Positions 46,937 through 52,099 of a stretch of 64,000 nucleotides of DNA are shown here, piece after piece (positions within the stretch are counted from its first letter, which is position 1; the number at the start of each line of letters is the position of its first letter). Origin of the DNA: Fibrobacter sp. UWT2 (lineage in GTDB: Bacteria; Fibrobacterota; Fibrobacteria; Fibrobacterales; Fibrobacteraceae); NCBI RefSeq assembly GCF_900142545.1, contig NZ_FRBF01000004.1, positions 62,001-126,000 on the forward strand, read 5' to 3'. Below the pieces are notes generated by a model that was not told the DNA's origin, made no database searches, and worked only from the letters and a program-made list of their open reading frames with translations. Both the position numbers and the translations under genes were made by a program.

Positions 46937-48940
46937 TTAGTGAATCTTGTTGCCGAGAAGGTCGAAACGCTTGCCGTTCTTTTCGACATAGAGCTTGTGG
47001 CCGTTCTGATGAATGCGCGGAGCTGCCTTGTTCTGCATGCTGGCGGGCAAAGTTTCGTGAATGGCTGTAGTCGCTGAACTGCTCGAAATCCACGGATTCC
47101 ACTGCGAAGAACTCGAAGCGAGCGACTGCGAAGAGCTGGATTTTTGTTCAGACGAGCTAGACTCCGGAGCGACAGAAGAGCTAGAAGCCACCTGAGAACT
47201 GGACGAAGCGACCGAAGAACTCGACGAGACAACAGTAGACTTTCTAGCAACGCCATTCGCTGCGAACGAGGGCGCGTAACCAGCGTTCAAAGCTTCAAGG
47301 GCTCCAGCGAGGTAAGCAAAAGGAGCGTTCCAGTTGATAGCTACTTCGTTGGTAGCGTAGCTGCAACGCTGATCGGTATAAGCGGTTGCCGCATTGCCTG
47401 TTCTGTAATCGCTGCACTTCCATTCGGCAGCAGAGCCAACGTCTTCGCCACCGGGCTGCGGGCCACCCACAAGCATACCTGGAATCGGATCTTCTACGTT
47501 GTCCGAAGTACTCGGGCGGTGGTGCGGCATCTTGGGAGACTTCGTGCCGTAACCTGTAACAAATGACATGTCAAGCGGATTCTTGCCGAGCAAGTAATCA
47601 AGCACCTTGAGCGCTGCGGTGTAATACTTTTCGTCGCCGGTGAGGTAATAGGCATGCAAAAGCCATACGCCCTGATTGGAGGCCACGGCGTTGGAGCCCC
47701 ACACAAAGTCATCTTTCGCCATCACCACGCCAAAGCCCGACTTGGTACGGTTCACGAAACCATCTGCAGTGCCCAAGATTTTCTGTTTGGCTTCGTTTGC
47801 ATCGCCAAACACAGATGCATGCGTCGCCTTGCCATAAGTGGCAACGCCCGAAAGGTCGCCCCAGTACGACACATATTCCGAAGAACCATTCTGCTTGTAA
47901 GAATTATCGCCCGTGGTAATGGCAAGTTCCGTACCGGCAAAAAGTTTTTCGTCTGCCGCGTTGTTGCCTTCGTATGCACCCGTCGCCACATCGGAGGGGT
48001 TTGCGGTAAAGTGGTAGCTCATATTCGAAGAGCCCCAGCTATAAGCCTTCTTGGCTGCATCAAGGCACTTAGCGGCGTAATTGGAATCAAACGGCTTGTA
48101 CACGCGAGCTGCTACCGCCATCACGCCGGCAAAGTCAAGGGCGGCTTCGGCACTCTTACCGATAACATAAAGTTTTGCATTGTCTTGCGCAGGCATCACA
48201 TCGCCCGGGAAAGCAAGAGAGGTAAGCTTGTGATAAACGCTACCGTCATTGGCCTGCATAGTCAGCATCCAGTCCAAATTGTACTTGATTTCGGCGAGCA
48301 AATCCGGCAAAGTTCCATCGGCAGGAATATTCCACTTGGCCGTCTTGAAAAATTCCGGGAAATGTTCGTAAAGCGAAAGGAGCGTGTAGGTGGTAATGCC
48401 CGAATTCACGATATAGCGTCCGTAGTCGCCGGCATCGTACCAGCCCTTGCTCGAATTGATGGTGCCCGAAGCGCGCGTAGAATTATGAAGTTCGACAGTC
48501 GCATTCGTATGGCCTGCGGCTCGCGCCCACTTGCCCGCATACGAGCTTTCGAGCGCCATGGAAGCACGCTGGTAGTAGAACCACTTGATAGCCGCCTTGT
48601 AAATGTCGGCGAAGGTGTTATTCTTGACCACCAGATCCTGGCGAAGCGTCTGGCCGCCCACCTTGATGGTGTACGTGCCTTCGGCAGTCAGCTTAGAGAT
48701 ATCGACCAGCTGTACATTCTGGCCGCTAGCATCCCAGTAAGAGGCGGCACCCGGCGTTACCGTGAGCATGGTCTTGCCCGAGGCATCCTGAATTTCGACA
48801 TTGCCAGAAGCACCGACAAGCGAAAATTCCTTGGGGTCGGAAGGGCGGAAACCCACCTGGTTAATGTAAGCGTTAGCAGCAAATACCGGCGCACCGGCAG
48901 AAACAATCGCGGTGATCGCGATAAACGTATTTTTATTCAT
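46937..48940 (-). CDS. Secreted glycoside hydrolase family 9 endoglucanase (667 aa)
   Basis: Cuts beta-1,4-glucan chains outside the cell. A signal peptide (NKNTFIAITAIVSAGAPVFA) is followed by an N-terminal Ig-like CelD-type domain (NAYINQVGFRP, about 22-110) and the GH9 catalytic (alpha/alpha)6 barrel: GWYDAGDYGRY (catalytic Asp pair, 169-172), PHHRPS and YATNEVAINWN (Glu acid). A Ser-rich linker (about 575-630, repeats of VASSSS and EQKSSSS) leads to a C-terminal segment ending KRFDLLGNKI, like Fibrobacter sorting tails. ATG 48940 has GAGAGG nine bases upstream; ATG 48949 is too close to it. TATATTTA lies at 48985-48992. Confidence 0.93.
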   Translation of the reverse strand: MNKNTFIAITAIVSAGAPVFAANAYINQVGFRPSDPKEFSLVGASGNVEIQDASGKTMLTVTPGAASYWDASGQNVQLVDISKLTAEGTYTIKVGGQTLRQDLVVKNNTFADIYKAAIKWFYYQRASMALESSYAGKWARAAGHTNATVELHNSTRASGTINSSKGWYDAGDYGRYIVNSGITTYTLLSLYEHFPEFFKTAKWNIPADGTLPDLLAEIKYNLDWMLTMQANDGSVYHKLTSLAFPGDVMPAQDNAKLYVIGKSAEAALDFAGVMAVAARVYKPFDSNYAAKCLDAAKKAYSWGSSNMSYHFTANPSDVATGAYEGNNAADEKLFAGTELAITTGDNSYKQNGSSEYVSYWGDLSGVATYGKATHASVFGDANEAKQKILGTADGFVNRTKSGFGVVMAKDDFVWGSNAVASNQGVWLLHAYYLTGDEKYYTAALKVLDYLLGKNPLDMSFVTGYGTKSPKMPHHRPSTSDNVEDPIPGMLVGGPQPGGEDVGSAAEWKCSDYRTGNAATAYTDQRCSYATNEVAINWNAPFAYLAGALEALNAGYAPSFAANGVARKSTVVSSSSSVASSSSQVASSSSVAPESSSSEQKSSSSQSLASSSSQWNPWISSSSATTAIHETLPASMQNKAAPRIHQNGHKLYVEKNGKRFDLLGNKIH

Positions 48941-48984
48941 TCCAAACATCCTCTCTTGTTCAAGAAAGTTCCAAACACCGTTGC

Positions 48985-48992: not shown

Positions 48993-49228
48993 TAGAAATG
49001 CCGTTTATAACGGCTTTCGTATTTGAATAATTTGAACAGTACTGTATCGAATGTTTTTTAAGGACGCGCACTCTGTTATACGGCTTTTAGGCTGTATTAT
49101 ACGTCTTGTATAATTTAGAGAAAAATATTTGTGAAAATGAACTAAATGTTGTTGATTTTAATCAAAAATACTGATTTTTGTATAATAAATTGTTGACTGA
49201 CTCCTAGAAAAAAGATATATTCCTTAGT

Positions 49229-50062
49229 ATGAAATCGGTACTTGAATATAAAGACTATCACCTCTTTATGCAGGATTACTACGACGAACGCAAACGTCTT
49301 GGTGCGTTCTCGTGGCGCGAGTTCTGCAAGAGTGCCGGTTTTACTTCGCCGAATTTCTTGAAGCTTGTGTGCATGGGCCAGAGCAAACTCAGCAAGGTCA
49401 AAATAGACGATGTGGCGAAGGCGATGGGCCTTGCCGGCTACGAGGCGGATTATTTCCGCGAAATGGTCCTGTTTTGCAATGCGGATAAAGATGAGGCCAA
49501 GAAGACGGCTCTCCTCGAAATGCAGAGGATTGCGCTGGAACATAAGGTGCGCGTGGTCGATGGCGATGCCTTCCAGTATTATGAATCCTGGAAGTATCCG
49601 GTTTTGAGGGAACTCATTCCGATGATGCCGGGGGCGACTCCTCGCGACATTGCCGACGAATGCAAGGAGCATGTGTCTGCTGAAGAAGTCCGCGATGTGT
49701 TGAATTTCTTGGTGAAAGCCGGGTTCTTGAAAAAGGACGGCGAAAAGGTCTATTCGCAGACGGAGCAGACCGTGATCGGTTCGCAAGAGGCTTTGCCCAT
49801 TGCCATTCGAGCCATGCATAAAGAGATGGCGAACATGGCGGCCCGCGCCGTAGACCGCTATTCCGTAAATGAACGTCATTTTACGGGTGTCACGCTCAGC
49901 GTGAATCAAGAGGCGCGCGAACGAATTGCGAAGGAACTCGATGCCTGCTGCAGAAGGGTGCTTGCGATTGCGAACGAATACAGTGATCAGGATCAGGTTT
50001 GTAGAGTCAATTTCCAGTTTTTCCCGGTAACGGACAAAGTTAAAGGGGTGCACCATGTTTAA
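49229..50062 (+). CDS. TIGR02147 family protein, probable regulator (277 aa)
   Basis: The family was named from Fibrobacter. The start VLEYKDYHLFMQDYYDERK and the next SWREFCKSAGFTSPNFLKLVCMGQSKLS look like a helix-turn-helix (aligned region about 28-60), then a helical body (LNFLVKAGFLKKDG as a second winged-helix-like part). Function is not established; the HTH suggests DNA binding. It overlaps the following lipoprotein gene by eight bases, so it is coupled to it and may control the pair. It diverges from the GH9 gene. Confidence 0.85.
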   Translation: MKSVLEYKDYHLFMQDYYDERKRLGAFSWREFCKSAGFTSPNFLKLVCMGQSKLSKVKIDDVAKAMGLAGYEADYFREMVLFCNADKDEAKKTALLEMQRIALEHKVRVVDGDAFQYYESWKYPVLRELIPMMPGATPRDIADECKEHVSAEEVRDVLNFLVKAGFLKKDGEKVYSQTEQTVIGSQEALPIAIRAMHKEMANMAARAVDRYSVNERHFTGVTLSVNQEARERIAKELDACCRRVLAIANEYSDQDQVCRVNFQFFPVTDKVKGVHHV

Positions 50063-50900
50063 GAAGTTTGCACTTGCCGTCAGTTCCCTTTCCTCCATTT
50101 TCATGGTGGCCTGCTCCAGTGAAAACGTGGCTGGCGGGACGATTGACCCGAATTCCATTGCCGAAATCAGCTGTTCCTCCGAAATCAGTTCTTCGGCGGT
50201 AGCTCCGGATGAGGAATTGTCCAGTTCGTCTGTAGGAGGCGGGAAGGATGTTCCTCCTGTAGAATTGAGCTCGTCTAGCAACAATGTGGATATCGTTATC
50301 GAATCCGGCTCATCTGTAAAGAAATTTGAGGTAGAGTCTAGCTCTTCGTTTGTAGATTCAAAGGATGTGAGCAGCAGTTCGATTGAAGATAAGGGTCTTG
50401 TGCCGGATCCGATACCGGTGTCATCTTCGTCGGAATCGTCTGATACCATAAATCCGAACAGTCCTTTAGTCTATTGCTTGGGCGAAGTATACGAGTTGGA
50501 TACCTCTGATCAAAAAAAGGATTTTGGATTCACGCCTTCCGCCCAAAAATATGTGGAGAATGATTGGGTCAAGGTAACTTTGATTGATGTTGCACTCGAA
50601 GTTCCGTGTGCGGCTTCTAGTCGGGAATTGTTCTTGAAAATGCTGGGGAACGGGAGCCAGATTCAGGTGAAACTTGAAAGCGATACACTGTATGTTGCCG
50701 ATTCGAGGAGCGATGAAAAGCGCAATAAGAGATCTACATACGGTTGTGTTTGTGCGGCCAGAATTGAATTTTCACTGGATAAGTTGTATTCGGACTTTGA
50801 CTATGCGGTATTTAATCGAAGGGAGGCTTTCCCGGTGGAAGATTTGACTCCCGTTCCGGAGCAGCCTAAACAGAATAAACAAGAAGGAGGATTCATATGA
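50055..50900 (+). CDS. Ser-rich lipoprotein with one copy of a Cys-containing domain (281 aa)
   Basis: Lipobox MVAC (Cys20) ends a lipoprotein signal. About 110 residues of Ser/Glu/Val-rich low complexity (SSSS runs) follow, then a folded domain from about residue 137: LVYCLGEVYEL, VKVTLIDVALEVPC, then GCVCAARIEFSL. The same spaced pattern (C; V.V.L.NV...C; CxC...I.F) occurs twice in the next gene. The family is unknown to me. It overlaps the upstream regulator (ATG 50055) and the next gene by four bases. Confidence 0.82.
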   Translation: MFKKFALAVSSLSSIFMVACSSENVAGGTIDPNSIAEISCSSEISSSAVAPDEELSSSSVGGGKDVPPVELSSSSNNVDIVIESGSSVKKFEVESSSSFVDSKDVSSSSIEDKGLVPDPIPVSSSSESSDTINPNSPLVYCLGEVYELDTSDQKKDFGFTPSAQKYVENDWVKVTLIDVALEVPCAASSRELFLKMLGNGSQIQVKLESDTLYVADSRSDEKRNKRSTYGCVCAARIEFSLDKLYSDFDYAVFNRREAFPVEDLTPVPEQPKQNKQEGGFI

Positions 50901-52048
50901 AAAACGCGAAAATTTTGACCGGTATTGCTTCCGCCTCAATTACGGCAGCGCTCTCGTTCGCGTTGCTCGCCTGCGGCGACGATTCGTCTTCGAGTATGGC
51001 ACCTGAGCCTATTACTGAAGGCAACAGTTCCGCTGTGGAGGTGTCGTCCTCTAGCGAACTTCTGCCCGATACGACCTGTTGCAAGGTGACGAGTTCTTCG
51101 TCTAGTGGGGAACAGGGGACATCCTCTAGCGAAGAACCGAGTTCATCTTCTGTGTTGTCGTCATCGAGCTTTGATATTCACATGTCGAGCATGACTTGTT
51201 GTGAAGATATCATTCAGAGAACAGATGATGTTTTCGGAATGTGCCTCGATAAAAATGTGGATCCCATGGCTGATGCAGCCTTGCCGCCTGTTGCCTATAT
51301 GATTCCGGAAGAGGGAACCGATTCGGTGGCGATTGTTATCGAAAATGTATCTATGGCTTGCGAGGCTATTAGTGGAACGACAGGCATGATTAGGCGTCCC
51401 CCTATCAAACAAATATCTGTAGGGACGAACTATTCTTATCTTAATGTGGTCCCGAAAATGGATGAATCTCGCGTGCAAGAAGATTGCATTTGCGGTGCAC
51501 GGCTTATTTTCAAAATCGAGGCAAAATCCAATTTCATAAGTGCTACGACTTTGAATGTTGTCTTTGACGATAATACGATTAACGAAATCCCTATCGTTAA
51601 GGAAGATTCTACGGTTGTAGTGGATACAATCCCTTTCGCACTGGATAGTGTTCCTGAATCGACTCCGACGGAATTGGAATTGAACGGCTATGCGCGAGGC
51701 AAATGCATGGATAATGACCTTGCCGTAAAGCCTGTTACAAAAAGTGCAGTCTCTGACCTTCCCGAAGCAAGGCAGATTACTTACATGAACGGTATGACAG
51801 TCTTGACCTTGGAAAATGTGATGGACTATTGCGGAATAGACGCGAAGGTTTCTCAAAAGATGGTCGGTGATACGTTGATACTCGATTACTACGATCAGAG
51901 CGCGGTGACGAAGTGCATTTGCAACTTTGATCAAATCGAGTTCCTGCTTGAACCGGAAAATACGGCTGCCAGATACGTCAAGTTCAAAGATGTCGTGTAT
52001 TGGATCGACGTGATTATGTACGAGGTTCAGTTTAACTGGAAAGGGTGA
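50897..52048 (+). CDS. Ser-rich lipoprotein with two copies of a Cys-containing domain (383 aa)
   Basis: Lipobox LLAC (Cys26). A Ser-rich stalk to about residue 95 is followed by two related domains: copy 1 (about 114-230) with GMCLDKNVDPM, VAIVIENVSMACEA and EDCICGARLIFKI; copy 2 (about 269-380) with GKCMDNDLAV, TVLTLENVMDYCGI and TKCICNFDQIEFLL. Each shares the CxC-x5-F end. No enzyme motif. A lipoprotein with exposed domains on the cell surface is a reasonable picture (inference). It is the last gene before a strong terminator. Confidence 0.82.
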   Translation: MKNAKILTGIASASITAALSFALLACGDDSSSSMAPEPITEGNSSAVEVSSSSELLPDTTCCKVTSSSSSGEQGTSSSEEPSSSSVLSSSSFDIHMSSMTCCEDIIQRTDDVFGMCLDKNVDPMADAALPPVAYMIPEEGTDSVAIVIENVSMACEAISGTTGMIRRPPIKQISVGTNYSYLNVVPKMDESRVQEDCICGARLIFKIEAKSNFISATTLNVVFDDNTINEIPIVKEDSTVVVDTIPFALDSVPESTPTELELNGYARGKCMDNDLAVKPVTKSAVSDLPEARQITYMNGMTVLTLENVMDYCGIDAKVSQKMVGDTLILDYYDQSAVTKCICNFDQIEFLLEPENTAARYVKFKDVVYWIDVIMYEVQFNWKG

Positions 52049-52070: not shown

Positions 52071-52099
52071 AACAGGCGCTCCATCGGAGCGCCTGTTTT
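52071..52099 (+). terminator. Terminator after the TIGR02147-lipoprotein operon
   Basis: AACAGGCGCTCC and GGAGCGCCTGTT form a perfect 12-bp stem with a 3-base loop, then TTTG. Confidence 0.9.

Follow-up and report, generated by a model that had tools for sequence, protein, structure and literature searches.

The window considered here is a 64,000-nucleotide stretch of the 3.49-Mb genome of Fibrobacter sp. UWT2, in which three forward-strand genes overlap one another. The first (49229–50062, +) encodes a 277-aa TIGR02147 protein, a predicted autoregulator with a predicted XRE-type HTH (approximately residues 22–79) and DUF4423. It is followed by the genes for lipoprotein a (50055–50900, +; 281 aa) and lipoprotein b (50897–52048, +; 383 aa), each with a signal peptide, a lipobox (MVAC in a, LLAC in b) and a Ser-rich stalk; in both, the lipobox Cys closes the hydrophobic leader, which by inspection and by our own pattern rule is a type II signal peptide. 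The overlaps are 8 nt between the TIGR02147 gene and lipoprotein a and 4 nt between the two lipoproteins, so that the arrangement reported in a preliminary description of this DNA, a TIGR02147 gene overlapping two lipoprotein genes, is borne out by the ORF coordinates. A G+C-rich hairpin visible in the sequence 24 bp past the last stop codon (52072–52096, no strand assigned) is flanked by T-runs on both sides (4 on the + strand and 6 on the − strand, the + side falling under the T-run rule of the terminator scan) and is the probable end of the operon. Neither lipoprotein has a match in Pfam or NCBIfam, and PADLOC found no defence family. Divergent to the TIGR02147 gene lies a GH9-type cellulase gene (46937–48949, −; identified by eye from the sequence), and the 279-bp gap between the two includes the distal operator candidate described below. 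Because this neighbor is not conserved at orthologous loci, co-regulation of the cellulase was set aside.

The regulator and the Cys domain

The first gene belongs by curated cut-off to TIGR02147/DUF4423 (NCBIfam 'Fsuc_second', Pfam PF14394): its product matches TIGR02147 over residues 1–269 of 277 (E 1.2e-82; 277.5 bits against a curated cut-off of 50) and Pfam DUF4423 at E 4e-25. The database entry, as consulted here, describes just a paralogous family of unknown function and says nothing of lipoproteins as partners, of operators private to each member or of an HTH. The HTH assignment comes from family profile positions 22–79, which match XRE-type DNA-binding chains in the PDB weakly (E 8e-4 to 1.6); the best of these matches (E 8e-4) is an uncharacterised protein, the weak ones include the restriction-modification regulators C.BclI and C.AhdI, and HTH_3 is matched at E 0.01 by only 2 of 30 TIGR02147 members. 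Profile positions 183–251, in the DUF4423 part, weakly match the acetolactate synthase small subunit (6u9h_F, E 0.0019), which may hint at a ligand-binding fold or be due to chance. The literature searched names TIGR02147 nowhere, which is weak evidence of novelty as most subscription papers lie outside its coverage, and mentions DUF4423 in one paper, solely in a Bdellovibrio proteome table.

Lipoprotein a carries one copy and lipoprotein b two copies of a Cys-containing pattern of ~110 residues. Pairwise BLAST relates the three copies poorly (one pair aligns at E 0.001, and the other pairs do not align); they were therefore evaluated with an independent profile built from 64 relatives, each <35% identical to the window copies, with the window copies themselves left out. 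Searched against the 257 ORFs of the window, this profile returns exactly three matches (i-Evalues 2e-17 to 8e-17) and none beyond them: copy 1 in lipoprotein a (50475–50828, +, approximate bounds from the alignment; 7e-17), and copies 2 (51221–51625, +; 8e-17) and 3 (51686–52027, +; 2e-17) in lipoprotein b. Shuffling the two lipoproteins (400 versions) gives at most 8.7 bits, versus 55–57 bits per real domain. The three copies of the Cys pattern proposed in the preliminary description are thus real, and more than chance.

The domain is also found in other proteins, with 174 copies in 41 loci (40 fetched loci and the window) and 1–4 copies per lipoprotein. A profile of the three window rows matches 61 of the 168 phylum genomes, all within the genus; with an 83-row profile the number rises to 78, comprising 73 of 81 Fibrobacter genomes and 5 genomes in 4 other Fibrobacteraceae genera, and none of the 168 genomes has it outside Fibrobacteraceae. 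Pfam and NCBIfam give only scattered matches at E > 0.002 and no family, the best PDB match by sequence has E 0.41, and a Foldseek comparison of the predicted fold with the PDB and BFVD (viral models) gives nothing at E ≤ 0.001. As far as the libraries searched go, the domain appears to be new, as the preliminary description had supposed. Fib_succ_major and fibro-slime, two surface families of Fibrobacter, are likewise lineage-specific, rich in paralogs and made up of envelope proteins, but share no profile match with it.

For copy 3, AlphaFold2 run on the 83-sequence alignment predicts an all-beta structure (pLDDT 86, pTM 0.78); the model is alignment-based, and a single-sequence prediction of the two-domain part reached only pLDDT 36. 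Four Cys residues are conserved among the 83 domains, C1 in 61, C2 in 73, C3 in 73 and C4 in all 83. C2 and C3 are both present in 73 domains and both missing in 10, with zero exceptions (p 4e-13), and the ten domains lacking them retain C1 and C4. From this joint presence and absence we infer disulfides C2–C3 and C1–C4, which supplies the fold and disulfide predictions that the preliminary description had called for.

Some Cys-domain lipoproteins have no TIGR02147 gene within ~5 kb. One is in the UWT2 genome itself (L230:5665–6654, on contig C28 of G000) and others form a group (L129, L133, L134 and L143), several of these stand-alone genes being at a conserved location. Cys-rich repeats that look unlike the Cys domain occur in other lipoproteins that partner TIGR02147 proteins (L034:4957–6987, L036:5799–6980, L037:5668–6996).

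Regulator–lipoprotein pairing across genomes

All 23 TIGR02147 genes of the UWT2 genome adjoin a lipoprotein gene, directly downstream in 22 cases (where the codons usually overlap or abut) and divergently in one; as many as 58 matches to the family are found in one genome. The second species analyzed (G101) has a lipoprotein gene downstream of 29 of its 30 TIGR02147 genes, and in other families of the phylum about 25 of 29 loci with downstream sequence are paired, as judged by inspection. The control value set against the G101 count is 45 of 381 (12%) for other genes in the fetched loci. TIGR02147 genes do not, then, lie beside unrelated genes, an outcome on which the unit proposed in the preliminary description depended. 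The divergent case (L031:6989–9595), where the two genes have the intergenic region in common, belongs to a TIGR02147 subgroup with no downstream lipoprotein gene in either genome; the exception in G101 (locus L310) is a close relative of this odd gene and also lacks a downstream lipoprotein gene.

The ectodomains of the partners are mutually unrelated, and include LamG, CBM_4_9, pectate-lyase beta-helix, carboxypeptidase-regulatory-like, Fib_succ_major (carried by two partners), LRR and Reg_prop domains. Phylum-wide pairing with such varied ectodomains makes the Cys domain one payload of a general arrangement. An N-terminal domain of the VAGVSQKGPFVKGSAV type is common to several partner lipoproteins (for example L028:3845–5179 and L029:5212–9777); two of three lipoproteins of this type have no Pfam match, and in the third the sole match is to Fib_succ_major, further along the protein.

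Related pairs extend to the Bdellovibrionota. In ten genomes of that group the TIGR02147 gene abuts or overlaps one that encodes an exported protein, in some cases a lipoprotein, at 15 of 28 readable loci, and the remaining TIGR02147 genes stand alone and mostly belong to a longer, high-scoring subfamily. At loci L279–L293 exported-protein genes whose products have a GNGG..VC-like motif past the signal peptide often overlap the TIGR02147 gene (−4 nt).

Upstream repeats and their private words

Upstream of the TIGR02147 gene two operator candidates precede a promoter. The distal candidate (49095–49114, +) is an inverted repeat, TATTATAC-N5-GTATAAT; the proximal candidate (49175–49189, +), TTTTTGTATAATAAA, contains the word of the distal right half-site again, 72 bp downstream. 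The best promoter match of the region, TTGACT-17-TATATT (49193–49221, +), has a −10 that stops 7 nt short of the ATG, and with so short a distance the regulator mRNA is predicted to be leaderless.

This layout was compared in the regions before the start codon at 29 loci, whose TIGR02147 genes are orthologous or closely paralogous to the one in the window. The distal left half-site is kept in 29 of 29; the right half-site, which reads TGTATAAT, TGTATAGT or something very similar, lies near −122 in the 29 loci; and a second copy of the word is found near −50, abutting the −35, at a spacing of 70–73 bp from the distal right half-site in every locus. A TAnnnT hexamer 7 nt ahead of the ATG is present in 28 of 29. 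The genes upstream of the unit vary among orthologous loci, and the upstream signal therefore travels with the unit.

In all 29 loci the word is of the same type at both sites (15 A-type, 14 G-type and 0 mixed A/G), with two loci, having TGTATAGTA at both sites, typed by eye from the sequence. The G-type loci form one supported branch (100/98), which implies one joint change of the two sites rather than many; the co-variation thus rests on this single switch together with the comparison of paralogs. Residues that differ between A-type and G-type regulators include 51–61, just past the putative recognition helix.

Paralogs in the UWT2 genome show the same geometry with other words: TGTACTAT (TIG07, retained in its G101 counterpart at L308), TGTGTTAT (TIG16), TGTTGCAT (TIG10) and TGTATCAT (TIG13). 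In a cognate test, in which the word adjacent to the −35 was asked to recur better in its own distal region than in those of the other paralogs, cognate matches exceed non-cognate ones in both species (p 6e-4 in the UWT2 genome, p 2e-4 in G101). Exact 8-mers recur in the own regions of 5 of 13 testable genes (UWT2) and 4 of 14 (G101), against 0.7% and 2.4%, respectively, in foreign regions. The anchor and scoring were picked after the window case had been seen, so that G101 is a partial and not a fully blind replication. The operator half-sites are AT-rich, and a longest-common-word test (p 2e-4), inflated by AT-rich words, is weaker than the cognate/non-cognate comparison. Only some of the paralogs have clear private words; the pattern suggests an operator word private to each paralog and constant within orthologs.

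Together with the pairing, these sequence comparisons support a phylum-wide array of regulator–lipoprotein modules with private upstream signals. The idea of the preliminary description that the unit joins a regulator to its surface partners is strengthened by the conserved private repeats. It needs correction in two points: the Cys domain is a single payload among many, and it occurs in stand-alone lipoproteins as well.

A proposed self-regulated surface-lipoprotein module

The reading that we favor, and hold to be fairly probable, is that the three genes form one operon, which would belong to an extensive set of self-regulated surface-lipoprotein modules governed by TIGR02147 proteins via private words. 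The TIGR02147 protein would bind its word through the N-terminal XRE-type HTH, at the distal inverted repeat and at the proximal site ~72 bp (~7 helix turns) downstream, and would thereby set the transcription both of its own gene and of the lipoprotein genes co-transcribed with it. The mRNA would begin at the regulator ATG, and the lipoprotein genes would be read on through the overlapping stop and start codons. The lipoproteins would be lipidated and then moved to the outer membrane, where the Ser-rich stalks presumably display the disulfide-stabilised beta domains at the cell surface, probably as binders of external ligands.

The sign of the control is less certain. The proximal site abuts the −35, where class-II activators sit, and for that reason positive feedback is likelier, the TIGR02147 protein being an activator of its own operon; a repressor or a combined activator–repressor is less probable. 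Many XRE proteins repress, and the TIGR02147 protein may be a plain repressor exerting negative autoregulation only, relieved by a cytoplasmic metabolite at DUF4423, with a distinct nutrient state inducing each lipoprotein. This sub-case of autoregulation overlaps our preferred explanation except in sign, and we give it a real but minor chance: the distal and proximal sites are in helical phase (~72 bp), which suits looping, and the weak acetolactate synthase match of the C-terminal part, which may be chance, points the same way; however, the proximal site lies against the −35 without overlapping it, as activator sites do, and the ligand pocket is hypothetical.

It is unlikely, though conceivable, that the lipoprotein is instead a sensor and the TIGR02147 protein its signal output, the binding of a surface ligand being relayed to the cytoplasmic regulator, which would then act elsewhere, for instance on genes for carbohydrate degradation. 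Having a regulator for each surface protein would suit such a system, as would the LamG, CBM_4_9, pectate-lyase beta-helix, Reg_prop and LRR ectodomains, which are typical ligand binders, the GH9-type cellulase gene next door in the window, and the statement that most regulators of the F. succinogenes cellulase genes have yet to be identified (Suen 2011, PMC3079729). Yet the pair has no transmembrane partner to span the inner membrane and the Cys domains are extracytoplasmic; the full palindrome has a single occurrence in the whole genome (≤1 mismatch), so that no wider regulon shows; and the cellulase neighbor is not conserved among orthologs. Quite improbable is historical hitch-hiking, by which an ancestral TIGR02147–lipoprotein unit was duplicated, its functional link is gone and the upstream repeats reflect common promoter ancestry: duplication of whole units is conceivable, the genes being paralogs, but pairing is kept though the ectodomains are mutually unrelated, it persists phylum-wide and at about half of the Bdellovibrionota loci, and the words differ between paralogs while remaining constant within orthologs and at both sites.

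For the self-regulated module several known systems offer comparison. SusR/ECF-type regulators in Bacteroidota likewise provide one dedicated regulator per surface-protein locus, whereas the TIGR02147 pair has no SusC/SusD, anti-sigma factor or membrane relay. The C proteins of restriction-modification systems (C.PvuII, PMC2997769; C.AhdI, PMC5333194) are close: the gene of an XRE-type HTH autoregulator comes first and an overlapping effector gene second, the autogenous transcript has no leader, and the sites at the promoter are paired. The window sequence fits this geometry, with a predicted leaderless start and candidate operators. C proteins are ~80 residues long, lack DUF4423, control an endonuclease and bind adjacent sites, whereas the TIGR02147 operator candidates are ~72 bp apart and the payload is a surface lipoprotein. 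Membership in the C-protein family was rejected for a protein three times longer, with DUF4423 and with lipoprotein neighbors in place of a restriction endonuclease; the best reading is that the TIGR02147 protein works like a C protein without being one.

Recognisable regulators are scarce near cellulase genes in the F. succinogenes genome (PMC3079729), and in an envelope proteome 40 of 49 quantified lipoproteins decrease on cellulose (PMC6851124); several of the cellulose-responsive lipoproteins have a carboxypeptidase-regulatory-like domain, the link to TIGR02147 partners being this shared domain type. A bolder and rather doubtful extension of the self-regulated module is that each Fibrobacter genome has tens of mutually insulated, self-activating switches, each with its own operator word and one lipoprotein, with related pairs in Bdellovibrionota; positive feedback would then make every module bistable, so that clonal cells differ in the surface proteins shown. 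If true, this would be a transcription-factor-based, non-recombinational route to surface diversity.

Few protein families of the phylum are as expanded as TIGR02147/DUF4423, which was previously without function; with a fixed class of partner and an upstream signal private to each member, it now has a role that lends itself to direct testing. The paralogs, as naturally orthogonal autoregulators, would be suited to the study of how HTH proteins gain new specificity, and the modules are candidates for how Fibrobacter regulates its cell surface.
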